Shown: in pieces, positions 37,585 through 61,235 of the stretch
Position numbering within the stretch: the first letter of the stretch is position 1
Layout of the letters: each line of letters starts with the position of its first letter
From: Bacteroidia bacterium
GTDB taxonomy: Bacteria; Bacteroidota; Bacteroidia; B-17B0; Aurantibacillaceae
Reading direction: 5' to 3'
NCBI GenBank assembly: GCA_022841465.1
Contig: JALHRL010000003.1
Location: 155,571 to 219,570, forward strand
Length of the DNA stretch: 64,000 nucleotides
Notes under the pieces: model-generated
What the model was told of the DNA's origin: nothing
Database searches by the model: none
What the model saw: only the letters and a program-made list of their open reading frames with translations
Translations under genes and position numbers: made by a program

Positions 37585-39267
37585 TTATCGGAGTATTTTT
37601 CGAACAAATGCTACAGTAAAATAACTCATTAAAAACACCCCCGTAAATCCTTCCAGTGTTGCAATTAATTTTAAAATACCATAAGGGAAATAATCTCCAT
37701 AGCCAATTGTAAGAAATGTAATTGCGCTATAATAAATGCAATTCCAAAACTCTTGTAATCTGTTTAAATTGCTAGGCAAAGTACTTTCAACTGAACCTAT
37801 GGTATGAAAATAAGTAGTTGTGACATAAAAAATAATTCCGAAAACAAAAATTGTTAAGATAGCATTTAAAAGTACACGTGATGGGGCAGTTGCATACCTA
37901 CCAACAAAATCAAAAACATATTTTTGAAAATAATATTTTGGATAAGCAAATAAAGCTTGAAGAGCGTTCCCTTTTTTTTCTTCATTTAAATTGGCTAAAG
38001 CCTCGCATCTTTTAAATTCAATATATGCTAAATCTTCGTCCTCGTACTGACCATTAACTCTAAAATTTTCTTTTAATACCCTAAACTGTTCTGCTTTCTG
38101 TAAAAAAGTAGATGTTTCTTGATTGTAAATTATATCTTTTACTTCGTTTTCTCTCCAATTAATAAACAAGCGACCTAAAATTCTTGTGTTAATTAAATTC
38201 AGCTCTTTAATTATTACAGTTTCATTTTCCGGTACAATATCAATTATATCTCTTATCACCGAATTATTTAAGTTTAATACTTTGCAATTAGCAAATCTAA
38301 AATCAACAAAACTATTAAAGGAACAAGAATTAAATGAAATATGATTTGCATTTGCTTGATTGTATGAAAGCAACCCAATGCCAAAATCAACATCATCAAA
38401 ATTAATTTCGCTTTTTGAAAAATCTGAAAGATTAAAGTTTTTATTTCCTTTCCCAAAAACAGAGCCCCTAAAATTTACTTTTCCGTTTCCAAATTCAGCA
38501 CCCTCAAAAGAAACATCACCATCATTAAAATCTATACGCTTAAAATCTACTCTACCTCCACCAAATTCAACATTCTTAAAATCTTTTTTTCCTATTCCAA
38601 AACTTGCCTTTTCAAATGAAATATTTCCTTCTGAAAATTTTGCAAACTTAAAATCAATATTTCCTGCACCATATATTGTATTTTTAAAATCAACGTTGCC
38701 GTTACTAAATCTTGCATCTGCAAAAATTAAATTTCCATTTCCAAAATTTGTTCCTGAAAAAGTTATATCTCCATCACCAAAAATAACAGATTGAAAATTA
38801 TTAGTACCGCTACCAAATCTGGTGCTTTTAAATTGAACGGAACCATGACCAAAATCAGCGTAAATAAAATTATTAAAACCATTGCCAAAAACGCAATTAT
38901 TAAACTGAGTTTTTGTTCCTTCAAATTTTGCATAACTAAAATCTGATACCGAATAGCAATCAAAAAATGTACGGTGTGCCCTAAAGTTTTTTAAAGCAAC
39001 GTACTCGTGTTCTTTTAACCCTCGCTTATAACGATATTCGGAAAGTGAGAAATTAAAAACATATGCATCCTCTAAAATAAAATCTAATCCATTATCAATT
39101 CGATTATACAACTCATCTGCATCAATAACTTTTAATTTAACAATATTTACTTTATTGTTTCTATCATCAAAGAATTCAATATTCACATATTTAGATTCGC
39201 TATTAGAATCTTCTATGTTAACATTGTACTTTAATGAGGGACTTTCGTGTAATTGACTTTCGAGCAT
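37585..39267 (-). CDS. Potassium channel fused to an N-terminal 12-residue-repeat beta-solenoid
   Basis: The protein has 560 residues. After about 118 residues of leader come fifteen uninterrupted 12-residue units (119-298) with Phe at position 4, Phe/Tyr at position 9 and usually Gly at 12 (for example DITFSGTNFGNG, KVNFRGSVFGKG). A less regular stretch (299-365) and a helical, charged linker (385-440) follow. The C-terminus is a two-span channel: a span at about 464-485, a pore helix and filter TIGYGD at 520-525, and a span at about 533-555. The pore motif is diagnostic of a K+-type channel (Ion_trans_2). The repeat part is related in style to pentapeptide-repeat solenoids but has a 12-residue period. 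No signal peptide is seen, so the solenoid should be cytoplasmic. Gating ligand unknown. Confidence 0.85.
   Translation of the reverse strand: MLESQLHESPSLKYNVNIEDSNSESKYVNIEFFDDRNNKVNIVKLKVIDADELYNRIDNGLDFILEDAYVFNFSLSEYRYKRGLKEHEYVALKNFRAHRTFFDCYSVSDFSYAKFEGTKTQFNNCVFGNGFNNFIYADFGHGSVQFKSTRFGSGTNNFQSVIFGDGDITFSGTNFGNGNLIFADARFSNGNVDFKNTIYGAGNIDFKFAKFSEGNISFEKASFGIGKKDFKNVEFGGGRVDFKRIDFNDGDVSFEGAEFGNGKVNFRGSVFGKGNKNFNLSDFSKSEINFDDVDFGIGLLSYNQANANHISFNSCSFNSFVDFRFANCKVLNLNNSVIRDIIDIVPENETVIIKELNLINTRILGRLFINWRENEVKDIIYNQETSTFLQKAEQFRVLKENFRVNGQYEDEDLAYIEFKRCEALANLNEEKKGNALQALFAYPKYYFQKYVFDFVGRYATAPSRVLLNAILTIFVFGIIFYVTTTYFHTIGSVESTLPSNLNRLQEFWNCIYYSAITFLTIGYGDYFPYGILKLIATLEGFTGVFLMSYFTVAFVRKILR
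38374..38913 (-). repeat. Fifteen tandem 36-bp coding repeats (12-residue F-x4-F-G-x-G units)
   Basis: Residues 119-298 of the channel protein align in 15 consecutive 12-residue frames with no insertion. Position 4 is Phe in all fifteen, position 9 is Phe or Tyr in all, and position 12 is Gly in fourteen. Codons differ between units, so the repetition is conserved at protein level rather than being a recent DNA expansion. Confidence 0.93.
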
Positions 39268-39370: not shown

Positions 39371-39371
39371 G

Positions 39372-39445
39372 CGGTCCGGACGGGACTCGAACCCGCGACC
39401 TCCGCCGTGACAGGGCGGCATTCTAACCAGCTGAACTACCGGACC
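39372..39445 (-). tRNA. tRNA-Asp (anticodon GTC)
   Basis: A 74-base cloverleaf read on the minus strand. The acceptor stem GGTCCGG pairs with CCGGACC, and the discriminator base is G, as expected for Asp. The D arm contains AGTTCAGCTGGTTAGAA. The anticodon stem-loop is CCGCCCTGTCACGGCGG with anticodon GTC. The T arm is GCGGGTTCGAGTCCCGT. The CCA tail is not encoded. A well-formed promoter lies upstream and a terminator directly downstream, so it is an independent transcription unit. Confidence 0.98.
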
Positions 39446-52682: not shown

Positions 52683-55600
52683 TTATCTGAATATGGTTAA
52701 TGGTCCGGTATAAGGCTTTGGATAAGCCACATGGTTTAATTTTATGATGTAATAATAGGTTCCAACAGGTAAATCTTTACCATTGTATCTTCCATCAAAT
52801 TGATTTTTATATGGTTTTTCCCTCAATAATAATTCACCCCATCTATTATAAACCTCTACTTCATTTTCAGGGAATTGATTTAAATTATCTATGATCCAGG
52901 TATCGTTTCTTCCATCTGAATTAGGACTGAAGCCATTCGGGATTTTTATTTCCGGATAAATTGAAACCAGAATAGTATCACTTGCTGTACATCCGTTTGC
53001 GTCGGTAATAAACACTGTATATGTTGTAGTAATTGTATTAGAAGCTGTTGGGTTTGGGATGTTTGCGTTATCTAATGTTGATGAAGGTAACCAAGTATAA
53101 CTTACGGCACTTCCTGAGGTAGGATTTCCGCCAATTACAGTAGATGAAAACAATGAAATGGTTAATGATGGCCCTGCATCTGCATTTGGTAAGGCAAACA
53201 CATTTACCACAACCGTATCATAATCAAAACAGGCAGCAATAGAAGAAGTAACTAATAAAACATAGGTGTTTGTTCCTGCGGGAGGTAATACCTGTGCAGT
53301 AGAAGTTAAAGCTATAGTTGCTGCAGGAATTGTTTCCCATTGATACGTTAATGCATTAATAGAATTATTTCCATTTAATAATAAAGGATTATTTAAACAG
53401 AAACTGGTATCTAAACCTGCATCTGCCAAAACAGTAAACGATGGCATAATCGTTAATACTGTATCTTTTACACATCCTTTAGAATCGATGGTAGAAAAAG
53501 TATAGGTTCCTGAAGGTATATTAGACAAACTCTGCGCCGTAGAAGTAGCAGGTCCGTTCCAAGTAAATGTATATGCAGGAGTACCTCCACTTACAGTTGT
53601 TGTAATTGCACCGTCAATTGAAGAATTACAGGTTGCATCTGTTATAACGGCATCTACAGTAAATGATGGCGGATTAACCAAATTAAATGTAGCTGTTTTT
53701 ACACAACCTTCACTGTCTGTTATAATACCGGTATAACTTCCGGCACACAAATTATTAAGAGGGTTTGAAGGGGTTACCGTTGTTGCCGGATTCCAACTAA
53801 TAACATAAGGCATTGTACCACCACTAGGAACTAATGCAATTGAACCGTTGCAATCGTTATTACAATTTAATTCAGCTATTATTGGTAAACTTAAATTTAA
53901 AGGATCTGACTCGTTTATTGTGAAAGACTGGGCAGCTATACAACCCGCAGCATCTGTTACTGTAACTGTTATAACACCTTGACATAAGTTTGTTACGGTG
54001 TTTGTTGTGTTTCCATTACTCCAATTAACCGTATACCCCGGAGTTCCCAAGGTTGGTGTTATTGCAACCATACCTGTACAAGAACCACTACAAGCAACAT
54101 CTAATTGATTAAAGAATATTAGTGGTGCATCAAATGAATTAATTACTACTACTGCAGATTGTGTACATGTACCATCATTTACCAATAAAGTGTAAGTACC
54201 CGGGCCAACATTAGATAAGGTAGGAGTGCTCCCTGCTATTGGAGACCACGTATATGTATAAATTCCACTACCACCCGTAACGTTTGCAACTATAACACCA
54301 TTGGTTGCGCCACAATCAGGAGGAGTTAAATTAGGTGTGATTGTTATGTTAACCGCAGAGTTTACATTAACTGAACTTGTTCGTATACACCCTTGCGCAT
54401 CTGTCATTTGAACAAAATAAGTACCACCACATAAATTTGTAATAACACTATTTGTAGAAACAGGGTTTATCCAATTAAACGTTATTGGTAAATTGCCTCC
54501 AATTGGCGTTACGGTAACTGAACCATCGCATTGATTAAAACAATCTTCATCATCAATATTAAAAGTTTCTCCGGTAATACCAGAAGAATTACTTATTAAT
54601 ACATTCTGAACCTGAGTACATCCATTAAAATCAGTAACCAAAACTTGATTTACACCAGCACATAAATCAGTAACAACTGTTCCTGTTCCACCGCTTGACC
54701 AAGAGTATGTATAAGGTGCTGTACCACCTGCAACGTTTATACTAGATGAACCATTACACAATCCACAAGACGGTGAAGAAACACCAGGTGTTAATGTAAT
54801 TGCAGCAGGAGATATGATAGGTGTTGTAAAAGTATTTGTACAACCGTTATTATCTGTTATAGTAACTGAATAAGTTCCATTACACAAATTATTTGCAACC
54901 GGACCTGTTTGTGAATTACTCCACACAAAATTATAAGGTGCAGTACCACCACCTGCAGCTACAACTGTTGAACTTGCTAAACAATTTCCAGCGCAAAGAT
55001 TTGAAGAACTAGCCACAGCCCCAGTAACATTAATATTTCCATTAATGGTGTAAGTTGCCGTAAACGGACAATTTAAAGCATCTAAAATTTGTACTGTATG
55101 CGTGCCCACACATAAGTTTGTTACAACTGAAGTCGTTGCAGACGAATTCCATAAATAGGTAAATGGACCTGTTCCGCCCGTTGGAGCTAATACAATACTT
55201 CCGGTACAAACACCATTACAAATAGCATTGGTAATGGTCTCATTATCGTCAATTGCCGTAGGTTGATTTATTGCAACATCTTCAAATAAAATACAACCAT
55301 TTGCATCTGTAATTTGAGCCGTGTATGTTCCGGCACACAAATTAGTAATTGGATTTACCGAAGAACTTGCAGGAGGAACCAGCCAACTTACTGTATAGCC
55401 AGGAGTACCTCCAGTTATGGTAGAAACAGAAGCAGTTCCGTTACAAACATTAAAACAATTTAAACTTGTTGAAATAATAGCAGCTGAACTAGGTCCGTTT
55501 GAATTACTTAATGGTATGCTTAATGTATTTGTACAATTTTGAGAATCAGAAACAACTACTGTGTATACTCCTGCCGGTAAATTAGTAACAAAGGAATTAT

Positions 55601-58600
55601 TTCCTACTGCCGGAGGGAACCATGTGTAAGAATAAGCCGGTGTACCACCACTTGGTGCAACATTTATTCCACCATTAGAAAAACTACAAGTTGCAGGTAC
55701 AACAGATGGCGCTACTGTTAATGCAGGAGGTGCAGTTAAAGTAAAAGATTGAGTGTCGGTACAACCGTTATTATCAATTAAAACAACTGAATGAGCTCCC
55801 GCACACAAAGCAGTAGCCGAATTTGTAGTGCTTGCATTAGACCAAGTATATGATATTGGAGCCGTTGCATTTAACGGATTACTTATTGCAACACCGTTAC
55901 AACCTGTGTTACACGATGGATTTGTAAATGTAATATTTGCTGAAACAGCCGGAGGATTTGTAAGTGTTACAACTGCATTACCTATACACATACTTGCATC
56001 GGTTACAGTTAAGGTATATATTTGAGGGCATAATCCTGTTGGATTTGGGCCCGTACCTGTTGGTACCCATGAATAATTATAACCTCCATTACCACCAGAT
56101 ACATTAGTTGTAATTGAACCATTACAACTTCCATTACACAATGGTTGAGTTGGAGTTGCTGTAACACTAATTGCAGCAGGTTGTGTTAAGGTAAATGCAG
56201 TGCTTGCCTGACATCCATTTCCATCAACTACCGTTGCGGTGTAATTTCCGGCACACATTGCCCCTAAAGATTGACTTGTTGCTGCACTGCTAGACCAACT
56301 GAATGAGTATGTTGGTGTGCCACCTGTTACAACTTGAGAAGCGGTACCACTACAAACCAAATTACATGTTAAATTAGTGGTATTTACAGTATGAGTTAAT
56401 GCTGTTGGTTGTGTAATTGTAAATGTTCGTTGAACAGGGCAATTATTAATATCTAAAATATTTACAGTATAATTGCCTGCACATAAATTTGTAACTGTTC
56501 CTGAACCTTGACCAACAGGATTTCCTGGAGACCATGCAAATGAATAACCAGGTGAACCTCCTGAAACATTTAATGCTATTACAGCTGTACAAGTTCCGTT
56601 ACAAGGAGCATTTGTTTGAGAAGAAACAACAGTTATTGAAGACGGTTGTGTAACATTAAATGTTCTTGTGGTAACACAATTGTTTGCGTCTGTTATATTA
56701 ACTGTATAACCACCAGCCCCTAAGTTGCTAATGGTGGCAGTACCCTGCCCTGTTGGATTACCCGGCGACCATGTATAGCTATATCCCGGTGTTCCACCAC
56801 TAACAACAATTCCTATAGAACCATTTAATGCTGCAGCACATAACGGACTTGATACATTTTGAGTTATTGTTGTTGCCGGAGGCTGTGAAATATTTAAAGA
56901 CTGACTAGTTATACAACCATTATTATCAGTAACAGTAATGTTGTAATTGCCGGAACCTAATCCTGTTGCTGTGGTTGTTACACCTGCAACTAAACTGGTA
57001 GTTGCTGGGCTCCATGTAAAGGTAAACGGCCCTGCACCGGAAGCAACTGCAACAGCAGAGCCACTACTTGAGGCAAAACAGGTTACAGATGCCGAAGTAA
57101 CATTTACAGTAGGTCCTGCAGGATTAGATAATGTTGTTGCTAATGTTGTTGTACAACCCGCCCCATCTTGAATTATAACTGAAAAGTTTCCTGAACTTAA
57201 GTTTACATTGCACGGATTATTAGCTCCGCCTGTTCCGGCAGGAGTCCATGTATAAGTGTACCCTGCTCCGCTACCACCAGATGCAGTAGCACAAATTGTT
57301 CCATTTGCTAAAACGCAACCACTTGGATTGGTTGATGTAAACGAAGCTGTTAAAGAAGGGGATTCAGTTACGGTAAAAATTCTAATTTGATTACATCCAT
57401 TTAAATCGGTTAAACTAAGTGTGTAAACTCCTGCAGATAAATTTGTGAGAGAGGTAGTTGTCTGTCCTCCAGGGCTCCAAGAATAAGATATTAAACCTGT
57501 TCCACCACTTACTGTTGTTGTAATTGCACCACTAGTTCCACCAAAACAAGGGATATTGGTTTGCGAAGAATTAACCGTTAAACTGGCAGGTTGGGTAATA
57601 TTTACGGTTCCGGTATTAAAACAACCCAATTGATCTGTAACTGTTACCGTATAAGGTCCGGCACATAAGTTTGTTGCTGTTTGAGCGTTTTGAACCGGAG
57701 CACTATTCCAAGTATAGGTATAAGGAGCCGTTCCTCCAATTGCATTGGCTGTAGCAGAAGCGGTACAAGCACCAAAACAAAGTATACCTGAACCACCTGT
57801 AATAACAGTAACGCTAACTGTGTTTACTATTTGTAAAGATGCTGTGGCCGTGCAACCTTGAGCGTCTATTACATTTGCGGTATAATTTCCTAAACACAAA
57901 TTTGCAGCAGTTGAACCAGTAGCAACGGTTGCAGAAACAGTGTTTGTCCAGTTAATTGTATATGTTGGAGTACCTCCACCTACTGTAACGGTTGCAGCAC
58001 CTGTACATACATTACATGTTGGAACAGAACCGGTGATTGCAGCAGTCAATAATGCAGGGGAAACAATGTTGAAGTTAGTAGAAGTTGGGCATCCATTTAA
58101 ATCTGTAACATTTACTAAATAAGGATTAGCGCACAAACCGGTTAAAATACCTGTGGTATTGGTTACAACCGGAGGACTAAACTGAAAATTAAAAGGTGCA
58201 GTGCCACCGGTAGCTGTAACAGTTACAGAGCCATCGCACAATCCTGCACACGTAGTTGAAGCAGTATTAATTGATAATGTTATAGCCGGAGGAGCAATTA
58301 ATGCAGCTGTAAATGATTTATTACATCCATTTGCATCAGTTACAAACAAGGTATAAGTTCCGGCTCCTAATCCTGTATTTGGGTTTCCTGAACCAGTAGA
58401 CCAATTTAATGTATATCCGGGAGTGCCTCCTGCTGTTATCACGCCAATAGAACCATTATTTCCGCCATTACAAGTAGGATTAGTAATGTTTAATGTTGTA
58501 GTAATATCAGTAGGTTGTGCCAATGTTACCACTGTTGATGTTACACAATTGTTAGCATCAATGGCAATAAAGGTATATGTTCCTGCACATTGGTTAGTTA

Positions 58601-61235
58601 ATACTCCACCAATAATAGAACTTGTAGCCGTGTTCCAAGACAAGGTATACGATGGTGTTCCTCCACTTACACTTCCTGCTAATGAACCATTGCAAGCATT
58701 AAAACATGTTATAGAATTTGTACTAACGGTAGGCACCAAAGGATTTGGTTGTTGAATATTAACTGTTCTGGTAACCGGACATTGCAACGCATCTCTAATA
58801 ATTAAAGTATAAATACCGGCACATAAATTGGTAAATGGTGGTGCTGCTGTAATAGTAGATGCAGAAGGTGTAATTAATGTAAAAGTATAGGGCGCAGAAC
58901 CTCCTGTAGGATTGGCGTTAATTGAACCATTACATGCAGCATTACACGTAACAGAGCTACTAATAATATTTGGAGTTACACTTGTTGGTTGTGTAATTGT
59001 AATAACTGATGAAATTGCACAAGCAGAAGCATCTGTTACTGCCAAGGTATAATTAGCCGCGCATAAATTTGATACGGTAGCAGTTCCTTGCCCTGTAACA
59101 GTTCCTGTTGTCCAAACAAACGTAAATGGAGCTCCATTACCGCCTGTTACTATCGCTGTGGCAGAGCCTGCACAAGAAGAGAAACAAGTGTTATCTGTTT
59201 TAGAAATAGTAATAGTTAATGGTGGTGGTTGAAGTATGTTTACTGTTTGTGAAGCAATACAACCACCGGCATCTGTGGCGTTAATTGTATAAACACCTGC
59301 ACATAAATTGGTAATTAAACTGTTTGTTGTAGTTACAAATGGCGCAGGCCCCGACCATGTATAAGTGAATGCCCCTATTCCGCCGGAACCTAAGGCAGAT
59401 GCAGAACCCGTACAAGGCGTATTACACGTTAAATTTTTACTATTTATAGTTAAGGTTATTGGTGGCGGGGAAGTAATTGTAAATACTCTTGTTGCAGGAC
59501 AACCATTATTATCTGTTAAGTTTACAGTTTGAACACCGGCACATAATCCGGTAATACCGGCTGAGCTTCCGGGTCCGGGCGACCATGTAAAACTATAAGG
59601 CGATGTGCCACCGGAAACAGCAACCGAAGCAGCTCCTGTGCAATTAGAAAAACAAGTTAAATTCGTTTGAGACGGAGTTGCTGTAATAGAAGTTGGCTGA
59701 GTAATGTTTGAACTAGCAACTTGCGTACATCCATTAGCATCTGTAATCGTTGCGCTTACAGGGCCTAAACATAAAGAGTTTATTCCTGCAGAACTTGCAG
59801 CACCAATTACAGAAGATGCAGAAGTGCTAAATGCAACCGTATATCCGGGAGTGCCTCCTGAAGGATTTACAGTGAAGCCGCCGCTGCAAATACCAAAACA
59901 AGAAATACTATTCGTAACTGCATTTGCTAAAATAGGTGCAGGGCCTGTTAAAGTTCTTGTAAGTGTAGTACTACATCCATTGGCATCAACAATATTAAAA
60001 GTATAAACACCTGCACACATATTGGTTAATGTGTACGTTAAGGCAGTTGTAAAGGTAGATGGTGTTAAAGAAGCACTTGGTGTAACGGTTACTGAAAATG
60101 GCGGATTACCAAAAATATTACCGGTCATCATACCCGTGCAACTATTAGGACATAAAGGAGTGGTATTTACATTGGTTAAAAATGCCGGATTAGGAATAAA
60201 GTTTACGTTTTGCGACACAAAATTATTTAGCACGTCAAAAACTAAAACCTGATAATTTTGAAGAGGACATGCGCAAGCATTGGATGCGGTATACACACTT
60301 GTAGTAGCAGTATTTACAATACCCGCCAAGGTACCGGCTGTAGCCGCACAACTTGGATCGGGATTATTTACAAAAATATTATACGGATTATCAGTACATC
60401 CTGGTGAAAAGCTTATGGTTAATACACCGGTACAAGGGCCAAAACAAGAAGGTACTGTTGAGATGGTTAAGTTACAAATTGGCGCCACATAATTTACAAA
60501 CGTATTAGAAGTTTGGCTTTTTAGTGCTGCCGGAACCGAAAACTTTTCAGGTGAGTTAATATTAGCTACCAAATAAAATTTATCGGAACTGATGGTGTTA
60601 TTTTCATTTAACTTAAAATAACCCGTTGATTTAAAAAATGAATTATATAATTGGAAATTAGCATAAGGACTTGTACCACTAATGTTTCCGGCAACTACTA
60701 CCGCTCTGTTAAAGTTATAATCTCCATCTGCAAAATGAATAGAATTTTTTTCACTTAAATGCAACGATCTAAAAACATACTCGCCCTTATTAAAATACAA
60801 ATTACAGTTGAGTGTATTTAATCCGAATTCAATTACAGCAGTTTTGCCGGAATTGTTATTGAAAATCATTTCCGCGCTTGATTCAAATTTTACCAGCTGA
60901 GATAAATGAATGCCTTGACTTATGTATACAACGGATTGAGAACTGCCGGTAAACTTTACTAAATTAGAGAAAGAAATAGCCTTTAAATTTTTTAAAGAAT
61001 TGGAATTGCTGAAATTCACTTCATAATAACCTTGGGCTGAATTATCATCAAAAATAACATCTGTGTTAATATCAGGAACAACAAAGGCAGGAGTTCCACC
61101 CGATTTTTGCGACCAATGTTTAGGGTCGTTAAAACTACCTGAACCACCTACCCAATACAATGTTTGAGAAAAAACAAAGCTCGTAAGCAAAGAAAATAAA
61201 ATAGTAAACGAAACTTTATAAAGAGAGCGATTCAT
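52683..61235 (-). CDS. Giant SprB-like repeat adhesin with gliding-associated type-B C-terminal domain
   Basis: A 2850-residue surface protein. The signal peptide ends VFSQ and is followed by the common Bacteroidota opening TLYWVGGSGSFNDPKHWSQ and about 230 strand-rich residues. Residues about 252-2600 contain some 30 SprB-type repeats of 74-82 residues. Each typically has C-x2,3-C-x-G near the start, GG-x-PY-x-x-x-W in the middle and LCAG-x-Y then D-x-x-GC near the end. Two Ig/PKD-like domains follow, then the C-terminal domain IPNGFSPNSDGRNDTWIIDN, VYNRWGELLL, PVGTYYYIIKL (type-B sorting, CHU_C family). SprB is the mobile gliding adhesin; this protein is under half the length of F. johnsoniae SprB (about 6500 residues). 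sprF follows seven bases downstream. Confidence 0.92.
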   Translation of the reverse strand: MNRSLYKVSFTILFSLLTSFVFSQTLYWVGGSGSFNDPKHWSQKSGGTPAFVVPDINTDVIFDDNSAQGYYEVNFSNSNSLKNLKAISFSNLVKFTGSSQSVVYISQGIHLSQLVKFESSAEMIFNNNSGKTAVIEFGLNTLNCNLYFNKGEYVFRSLHLSEKNSIHFADGDYNFNRAVVVAGNISGTSPYANFQLYNSFFKSTGYFKLNENNTISSDKFYLVANINSPEKFSVPAALKSQTSNTFVNYVAPICNLTISTVPSCFGPCTGVLTISFSPGCTDNPYNIFVNNPDPSCAATAGTLAGIVNTATTSVYTASNACACPLQNYQVLVFDVLNNFVSQNVNFIPNPAFLTNVNTTPLCPNSCTGMMTGNIFGNPPFSVTVTPSASLTPSTFTTALTYTLTNMCAGVYTFNIVDANGCSTTLTRTLTGPAPILANAVTNSISCFGICSGGFTVNPSGGTPGYTVAFSTSASSVIGAASSAGINSLCLGPVSATITDANGCTQVASSNITQPTSITATPSQTNLTCFSNCTGAASVAVSGGTSPYSFTWSPGPGSSAGITGLCAGVQTVNLTDNNGCPATRVFTITSPPPITLTINSKNLTCNTPCTGSASALGSGGIGAFTYTWSGPAPFVTTTNSLITNLCAGVYTINATDAGGCIASQTVNILQPPPLTITISKTDNTCFSSCAGSATAIVTGGNGAPFTFVWTTGTVTGQGTATVSNLCAANYTLAVTDASACAISSVITITQPTSVTPNIISSSVTCNAACNGSINANPTGGSAPYTFTLITPSASTITAAPPFTNLCAGIYTLIIRDALQCPVTRTVNIQQPNPLVPTVSTNSITCFNACNGSLAGSVSGGTPSYTLSWNTATSSIIGGVLTNQCAGTYTFIAIDANNCVTSTVVTLAQPTDITTTLNITNPTCNGGNNGSIGVITAGGTPGYTLNWSTGSGNPNTGLGAGTYTLFVTDANGCNKSFTAALIAPPAITLSINTASTTCAGLCDGSVTVTATGGTAPFNFQFSPPVVTNTTGILTGLCANPYLVNVTDLNGCPTSTNFNIVSPALLTAAITGSVPTCNVCTGAATVTVGGGTPTYTINWTNTVSATVATGSTAANLCLGNYTANVIDAQGCTATASLQIVNTVSVTVITGGSGILCFGACTASATANAIGGTAPYTYTWNSAPVQNAQTATNLCAGPYTVTVTDQLGCFNTGTVNITQPASLTVNSSQTNIPCFGGTSGAITTTVSGGTGLISYSWSPGGQTTTSLTNLSAGVYTLSLTDLNGCNQIRIFTVTESPSLTASFTSTNPSGCVLANGTICATASGGSGAGYTYTWTPAGTGGANNPCNVNLSSGNFSVIIQDGAGCTTTLATTLSNPAGPTVNVTSASVTCFASSSGSAVAVASGAGPFTFTWSPATTSLVAGVTTTATGLGSGNYNITVTDNNGCITSQSLNISQPPATTITQNVSSPLCAAALNGSIGIVVSGGTPGYSYTWSPGNPTGQGTATISNLGAGGYTVNITDANNCVTTRTFNVTQPSSITVVSSQTNAPCNGTCTAVIALNVSGGSPGYSFAWSPGNPVGQGSGTVTNLCAGNYTVNILDINNCPVQRTFTITQPTALTHTVNTTNLTCNLVCSGTASQVVTGGTPTYSFSWSSSAATSQSLGAMCAGNYTATVVDGNGCQASTAFTLTQPAAISVTATPTQPLCNGSCNGSITTNVSGGNGGYNYSWVPTGTGPNPTGLCPQIYTLTVTDASMCIGNAVVTLTNPPAVSANITFTNPSCNTGCNGVAISNPLNATAPISYTWSNASTTNSATALCAGAHSVVLIDNNGCTDTQSFTLTAPPALTVAPSVVPATCSFSNGGINVAPSGGTPAYSYTWFPPAVGNNSFVTNLPAGVYTVVVSDSQNCTNTLSIPLSNSNGPSSAAIISTSLNCFNVCNGTASVSTITGGTPGYTVSWLVPPASSSVNPITNLCAGTYTAQITDANGCILFEDVAINQPTAIDDNETITNAICNGVCTGSIVLAPTGGTGPFTYLWNSSATTSVVTNLCVGTHTVQILDALNCPFTATYTINGNINVTGAVASSSNLCAGNCLASSTVVAAGGGTAPYNFVWSNSQTGPVANNLCNGTYSVTITDNNGCTNTFTTPIISPAAITLTPGVSSPSCGLCNGSSSINVAGGTAPYTYSWSSGGTGTVVTDLCAGVNQVLVTDFNGCTQVQNVLISNSSGITGETFNIDDEDCFNQCDGSVTVTPIGGNLPITFNWINPVSTNSVITNLCGGTYFVQMTDAQGCIRTSSVNVNSAVNITITPNLTPPDCGATNGVIVANVTGGSGIYTYTWSPIAGSTPTLSNVGPGTYTLLVNDGTCTQSAVVVINSFDAPLIFFNQLDVACSGSCTGMVAITPTLGTPGYTVNWSNGNTTNTVTNLCQGVITVTVTDAAGCIAAQSFTINESDPLNLSLPIIAELNCNNDCNGSIALVPSGGTMPYVISWNPATTVTPSNPLNNLCAGSYTGIITDSEGCVKTATFNLVNPPSFTVDAVITDATCNSSIDGAITTTVSGGTPAYTFTWNGPATSTAQSLSNIPSGTYTFSTIDSKGCVKDTVLTIMPSFTVLADAGLDTSFCLNNPLLLNGNNSINALTYQWETIPAATIALTSTAQVLPPAGTNTYVLLVTSSIAACFDYDTVVVNVFALPNADAGPSLTISLFSSTVIGGNPTSGSAVSYTWLPSSTLDNANIPNPTASNTITTTYTVFITDANGCTASDTILVSIYPEIKIPNGFSPNSDGRNDTWIIDNLNQFPENEVEVYNRWGELLLREKPYKNQFDGRYNGKDLPVGTYYYIIKLNHVAYPKPYTGPLTIFR
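53430..60480 (-). repeat. About 30 tandem SprB-type repeats (coding, about 230 bp each)
   Basis: Counting by the recurring C-x2,3-C-x-G opening gives 30 units over about 7 kb, a mean of about 78 residues each. Sequence identity between units is moderate: motif residues are shared but wording varies. The array is therefore old or diversified, not a fresh tandem duplication. Boundaries are approximate to within about 30 bases. Confidence 0.88.

Follow-up and report, generated by a model that had tools for sequence, protein, structure and literature searches.

What kind of repeat precedes the pore of the predicted potassium channel encoded at positions 37585-39267 (reverse strand) of the window, and what might that repeat do for the channel? 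The window is the whole 64,000-nucleotide stretch of Bacteroidia DNA analysed here. The ORF encodes a protein of 560 aa, starting with ATG, and its parts are listed in Table 1. The first 85 residues, for which a Pfam scan gave no match, are modelled by AlphaFold2 as a short helix, three strands, a helix, a strand and a helix, in that order.

Table 1. Parts of the channel protein, with residue numbers, window coordinates and the evidence for each
Feature	Residues	Window coordinates	Strand	Evidence
N-terminal domain	1-85	39013..39267	(-)	AlphaFold2 secondary structure
Predicted beta-solenoid entry, irregular	86-118	38914..39012	(-)	Repeat count and solenoid model
Fifteen 12-residue (5+7) units, probably of pentapeptide type	119-298	38374..38913	(-)	Repeat count, alignment, model, Foldseek, Pfam
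Predicted C-terminal part of solenoid, irregular	299-372	38152..38373	(-)	Solenoid model from alignment A3
Linker, mostly helical in the model	373-455	37903..38151	(-)	Alignment A1 and AlphaFold2 model
First transmembrane (outer) helix	462-486	37810..37884	(-)	Pfam and AlphaFold2 model
Pore helix and selectivity filter TIGYGD (520-525)	503-528	37684..37761	(-)	Ion_trans_2 match; T[IV]G[YF]G in 54/54 rows
Inner helix, protein terminus	532-560	37588..37674	(-)	AlphaFold2 model and 54-row alignment

The repeat itself is as regular as the original prediction had described it, with fifteen consecutive units of 12 residues and no insertion or deletion between residues 119 and 298. Phe occupies position 4 in 15/15 of these units; position 9 is Phe in 14 and Tyr in one; Gly is found at position 12 in 14/15 and at position 10 in 11/15. 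When compared with 300 shuffles, the largest excess of order was obtained at a period of 12 (z 17.9), while period 24 gave a z of 13.6 and period 5 a z of -3.0.

A scan of genome contigs yielded 32 loci with related genes, all from MAG records, which are titled as Bacteroidota groups apart from one titled just 'bacterium'. Unbroken full-length proteins, 48-75% identical to the window protein, were obtained from 31 of them, and these proteins, together with that of the window, constitute alignment A1 and the 32-member family referred to below. The remaining locus, L032 (3899-5550, from a groundwater Bacteroidetes MAG), has an interrupted frame and was excluded from A1 and from all counts; its gene copy lies in two ORFs with no continuous frame, which perhaps reflects decay of the gene or a fault of assembly.

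Within the order, a threshold of E ≤ 1e-20 gave matches in 37 of 87 genomes, the gene being present in two of these as partial pieces, and many relatives are without the gene. Matches at E ≤ 1e-15 were found in 27 of 395 genomes sampled from the class, one being a remnant with eight stops. A sample of the phylum gave matches in 28 of 247 genomes, 27 of which matched solely from profile position 444 onward. An alignment of 54 rows was assembled from the window protein, the 31 genome-scan loci and 22 class loci (L082-L103), the last admitted by a pore-and-C-terminus motif that 22/22 passed. Of the 27 class matches, L033 is the window itself, and L078, G642, G657 and the degenerate G359 were left out of the alignment, as were the order loci L053-L081. 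The rows are partly redundant (L084 and L030 look identical), with 48 of them less than 90% identical to each other; the least similar pair shares about 31% identity.

It is apparent from the 54 rows that the units are shared by the family: an aromatic residue is present at position 4 in 802 of 810 units and at position 9 in 788, and Gly is present at position 12 in 713. Since relatives carry the same units, the repeat is no assembly artefact. The repeat region is 180 residues long in 44 rows, 179 in nine and 178 in one, and because its length stays at 178-180 residues the number of repeats is fixed in this set.

The original prediction had also held that this pattern is not that of pentapeptide repeats, a distinction that the comparisons do not uphold. 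Judging from sequence, each 12-residue unit is probably two pentapeptides plus two residues (5+7), and not a new kind of repeat. Unit positions 2-6 and 7-11 are each pentapeptide-like, opening with a residue that is usually small or hydrophobic, followed by one that is usually polar, then Phe and two variable residues, with the Phe residues spaced 5 and then 7 apart; positions 12 and 1 make up the additional pair between pentapeptide pairs. As in pentapeptide repeats, a small or hydrophobic residue is situated two residues before the central L/F: position 7 is chiefly A, V, T, S or C, and position 2 chiefly V, I, T or L, yet K in 72 of 810 units. Ordinary pentapeptide proteins, as described in the accessible part of PMC8145042, have at least eight contiguous 5-residue repeats, four per coil. 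This arrangement was not found in the window protein, with its strict 5+7 spacing and a coil of probably about 24 residues, in contrast to the HetL-type coil of four 5-residue repeats given in the same part of that paper.

The Pfam results differ between the window protein and its relatives. No Pentapeptide match was obtained with the window protein's own sequence, whether the whole protein or the solenoid was scanned. At E ≤ 10, however, Pentapeptide_3 was found in the solenoids of 18 of the 32 family members (that of the window not among them), and Pentapeptide_4 in 9 of the 32 solenoids scanned alone; whole-protein scans at the same threshold gave 5/32 and 6/32, respectively. Among ten members scanned singly, L002, at 52.7 bits, exceeded the Pentapeptide_3 cut-off of 27, whereas L018, at 24.3, fell short of it. 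Diverged members gave comparable results, L094, L097 and L099 being above the Pentapeptide_3 cut-off at 42.3-54.5 bits and L085 having no match. At the level of the family, membership in PF13576 is thus indicated by those orthologues that exceed the curated cut-off.

A tblastn search of plasmids with the window protein matched 86 records, 67 of them from Streptomyces, with E values down to 2e-21. None of the records reached 80% query coverage, and 29 of the 30 plasmid records among the matches listed are annotated 'pentapeptide repeat protein'. Two Actinobacterial proteins, Streptomyces WP_153182134.1 (E 2e-21 to the window protein) and Nocardiopsis QKW32468.1 (E 3e-20), have the same F-x4-F-x6 12-residue period as the window protein, and both exceed the Pentapeptide_3 (PF13576) cut-off, at 1.4e-31 and 9e-17, respectively. 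Unlike the window protein, neither has a channel domain at E ≤ 0.01 (QKW32468.1 without its first residues).

Other candidate names for the repeat were rejected. Weak Pfam matches on the solenoids to DUF4097 (9/32, best E 0.022) and CDtoxinA (4/32, best E 0.0014) were attributed to chance. The RTX beta-roll has the motif GGxGxDxUx with a calcium-binding Asp, and of the 810 units, 510 have V or I at position 2, which is taken as equivalent to that Asp. A scan of NCBIfam gave a single match, far under its cut-off, and a comparison of the 5+7 repeat with solved chains by sequence gave a best match of E 0.37.

Structural models were made with AlphaFold2 for the whole protein on alignment A1 (pLDDT 86.8, with smaller values in the membrane part and 56-86 per block in the pore region) and for the solenoid alone on alignment A3 (pLDDT 94.8, pTM 0.88). 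The regular solenoid, helical linker and two-span TIGYGD pore of the original prediction are all borne out by the model and by an Ion_trans_2 match. In a Foldseek search with the solenoid model, HetL (3du1) was first (E 1.7e-5, probability 1.00), and the six matches at E ≤ 0.001 were HetL, then synthetic Beta1 solenoids, which we take to be designed on the pentapeptide pattern, and then QnrB1. Four solved pentapeptide proteins are among the best matches, their first chains ranking 1 (HetL), 6 (QnrB1), 13 (MfpA) and 18 (AlbG), with a lyase entering at 12, and the TM-scores are low (0.30/0.34 for HetL, rmsd 10.1). To our knowledge, none of these four proteins is associated with a channel. The whole model gave no Foldseek match in the PDB at E ≤ 0.001, the best being QnrB1 at 7.5e-3, and among viral predicted structures there was likewise no match at E ≤ 0.001.

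VIA-align gave a different order. HetL was matched to the solenoid with Z 18.2 and an rmsd of 2.8 over 221 residues, and was the sole pentapeptide protein among the 50 matches listed; it was outranked by eleven tailspike, lyase and NosD rows, the best of them that of the Sf6 tailspike, which aligned over 263 residues with Z 20.6 and an rmsd of 2.9. With the whole model, no pentapeptide protein was among the 50 matches listed. Since the matches from both Foldseek and VIA-align are beta-helices, the fold class of the modelled solenoid is that of a beta-helix, presumably right-handed by analogy with the matched structures, and the specific kinship with pentapeptide proteins rests on sequence plus Foldseek. 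The higher score of the Sf6 tailspike by VIA-align, together with the window protein's want of a Pentapeptide match, could be taken to indicate a novel family of 12-residue solenoids, unrelated to pentapeptide repeats and nearer to the right-handed beta-helices of tailspikes and lyases. We consider this quite improbable: the Pentapeptide_3 matches in close and distant relatives count heavily against it, as do the scores of the two Actinobacterial proteins of 12-residue period and the pentapeptide proteins at the head of the Foldseek ranking.

One turn of the solenoid had been proposed to equal 12 residues; the data favour a longer coil. The autocorrelation of the predicted strands is 0.70 at a lag of 24 residues, 0.53 at 48, 0.41 at 12 and 0.36 at 36. 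Conservation of the positions taken as outward is correlated at lag 24 (r 0.27, p 0.0014 from 5000 shuffles of unit order, uncorrected for the four lags examined), and no correlation was obtained at lags 12, 36 or 48. In contrast, BLOSUM similarity between units in the 54 rows peaks at a lag of three units, or 36 residues (p 0.03; p 0.73 at lag 2), as it did in an earlier set of 40 rows. This peak is not what a simple coil of 24 residues would give. A coil of 36 residues was nevertheless set aside because the strand pattern and the surface conservation favour 24, and one coil appears to comprise about 24 residues, not 12, in which case the fifteen units would make about 7.5 coils.

The pore is that of a 2TM K+ channel in its sequence features, with two membrane helices and a T-[IV]-G-[YF]-G filter. 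The Ion_trans_2 match has an E value of 4.6e-11 and a score of 42.9 bits, against a Pfam cut-off of 22.5; the domain is matched by 32/32 family members, the T[IV]G[YF]G filter is present in 54/54 aligned rows, and two long helices lie around TIGYGD in the AlphaFold2 model. The conserved co-occurrence of solenoid and Ion_trans_2 pore that the original prediction had envisaged is evident in both the A1 family and the class search. RCK-gated channels have a C-terminal RCK/TrkA domain after TM2. The Pfam scan of the window protein detected neither RCK nor any other C-terminal domain, but only Ion_trans_2 and a sub-threshold Ion_trans match, and the protein stops at the end of the inner helix with the near-invariant YFTVAFVRKILR. 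Over the final 14 residues, 47 of the 54 rows are identical and the remaining seven similar. Between solenoid and pore, near-invariant residues of the linker are Q383, Q394, K399, E400, G406, Y408, E411, D412, Y415, R420, F452 and D453.

Conservation is also seen at positions taken as outward on the solenoid, namely D205, F208, D229, K231, E234, D241, R244, E258, K263, R267 and D282. These residues are mostly charged and fall on units 8-14, in the C-terminal half of the rod. Together with the conservation of the linker and inner helix, this surface suggests a specific contact and a coupling to the pore. The interpretation to which we incline, with modest confidence, is that a 2TM K+ channel carries an N-terminal docking or sensor rod of the 5+7 pentapeptide type, each coil comprising about 24 residues. 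The protein would be a channel subunit, presumably tetrameric, with a large N-terminal beta-helix domain that is presumably cytoplasmic. A partner protein or ligand would bind units 8-14 at their conserved and largely charged surface, the helical linker would transmit the effect of binding both to the stretch that precedes TM1 and to the end of the inner helix, and the pore would open or close in response. The repeat, type of fold, coil length (indirectly), pore, linker, conserved surface and near-fixed length on which this interpretation draws are supported by the alignments and the models; the tetramer, the cytoplasmic side, the ion selectivity, the direction of gating and the existence of a ligand are presumed, and we infer the docking or sensing role and gating through the linker.

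The solenoid could also be a passive cap or anchor. The main alternative to a docking or sensor rod is a structural or assembly module that keeps the tetramer stable or in place, or fixes the channel to a site in the cell, with no part in gating. A near-fixed length and a conserved core would be expected of such a scaffold as well, but the outward, mostly charged residues conserved on units 8-14 and the strong conservation of linker and inner helix are less readily expected of it, unless they reflect contacts between subunits, which would explain them equally well. On balance this alternative is possible but rather unlikely. An elaboration of the docking rod, in which four rods of fixed length form a gating ring about the axis of the pore, with the conserved charged surface of units 8-14 read by a partner in the cytosol, is put forward only tentatively and seems doubtful. 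If true, it would provide Bacteroidia K+ channels with an N-terminal gating module unlike the RCK and cyclic-nucleotide domains.

The original prediction had raised a DNA-mimic type of gate, which receives little encouragement from the composition of the repeat. Gyrase-protecting DNA mimics have a strongly acidic, DNA-like surface. The window's units at residues 119-298 contain 19 K+R and 21 D+E by residue count, and 45 rows are similarly near neutral, with 16-25 K+R and 19-28 D+E per 180 residues. On these charge counts a DNA-mimic function is unlikely. A module of the MfpA/Qnr type, sensing or binding gyrase or another DNA-binding protein, would accord with the presence of QnrB1 and MfpA among the Foldseek matches, but QnrB1 was ranked below HetL and synthetic Beta1 solenoids, and we regard such a module as very improbable indeed.

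Pentapeptide regions joined to channels are found in other organisms. Haloprofundus WP_233340543.1, Halorubrum WP_168654377.1 and Priestia WP_323874026.1 resemble the window protein in having an N-terminal pentapeptide region followed by a 2TM pore, and in each of the three, when scanned, pentapeptide and Ion_trans_2 matches were both above cut-off. The Haloprofundus and Halorubrum proteins also share with it, by eye, a Y-x-x-x-P before TM1. The repeats of the haloarchaeal and Priestia fusions differ, however, being ordinary contiguous 5-residue repeats without the F-x4-F-x6-F units of the window protein. Another beta-solenoid with inward Phe is that of the Knotted Solenoid proteins of Brevundimonas, the nearest unknotted relatives of which are pentapeptide proteins; in contrast to the window protein, these are triangular, knotted and dimeric, and a fused ion channel is not mentioned in the accessible part of their description (PMC13123833).

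No pentapeptide-repeat potassium channel was found among the best full-text literature matches, as judged from titles and the beginnings of abstracts in a collection that leaves most subscription papers outside. The word 'channel' is absent from the main text of PMC8145042, so far as that text is accessible, and the accessible part of PMC11237479 has one mention of pentapeptide domains and none of a channel fusion. The pentapeptide-channel fusion, in its ordinary form, and the 5+7 repeat are each already in public annotation. As both are known in public sequence, what is distinct here is that the two are combined, and with the number of units fixed at fifteen. The family might serve as a compact test case for the control of a pore by a rigid beta-solenoid, and also for the coil geometry of 5+7 pentapeptides.

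The surroundings of the gene were analysed with ORFs of at least 120 aa from 55 loci, including the window, grouped in BLAST clusters; the test is a weak one, several flanks being short. Apart from the gene and the ORFs antisense to it, no neighbour was conserved in more than 7 of the 55 loci, and no candidate partner emerged from the neighbourhood. No PADLOC match indicative of a role in defence was obtained. The antisense ORFs form recurrent clusters (22, 21 and 8 loci), that of the window being a 144-aa ORF overlying the repeats (38360-38794, forward strand); they are probably a by-product of codon periodicity. A tRNA-Asp gene (39371-39445, reverse strand) is situated about 100 bases upstream of the channel gene on the same strand. 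A tRNA-Asp lies just upstream of the gene in L003 as well, and a tRNA-Ser in L005 and L007; any tRNA is present in 5 of 31 relative loci. Elsewhere in the window is an ORF of 2850 aa (52683-61235, reverse strand). Finally, L034, a 517-aa open frame in another genome, encodes a different channel in which one can see by eye a Y-x-x-x-P ahead of TM1, a linker that looks helical and a stretch that may be solenoid-like, and which is perhaps a distant relative of the solenoid-channel design.
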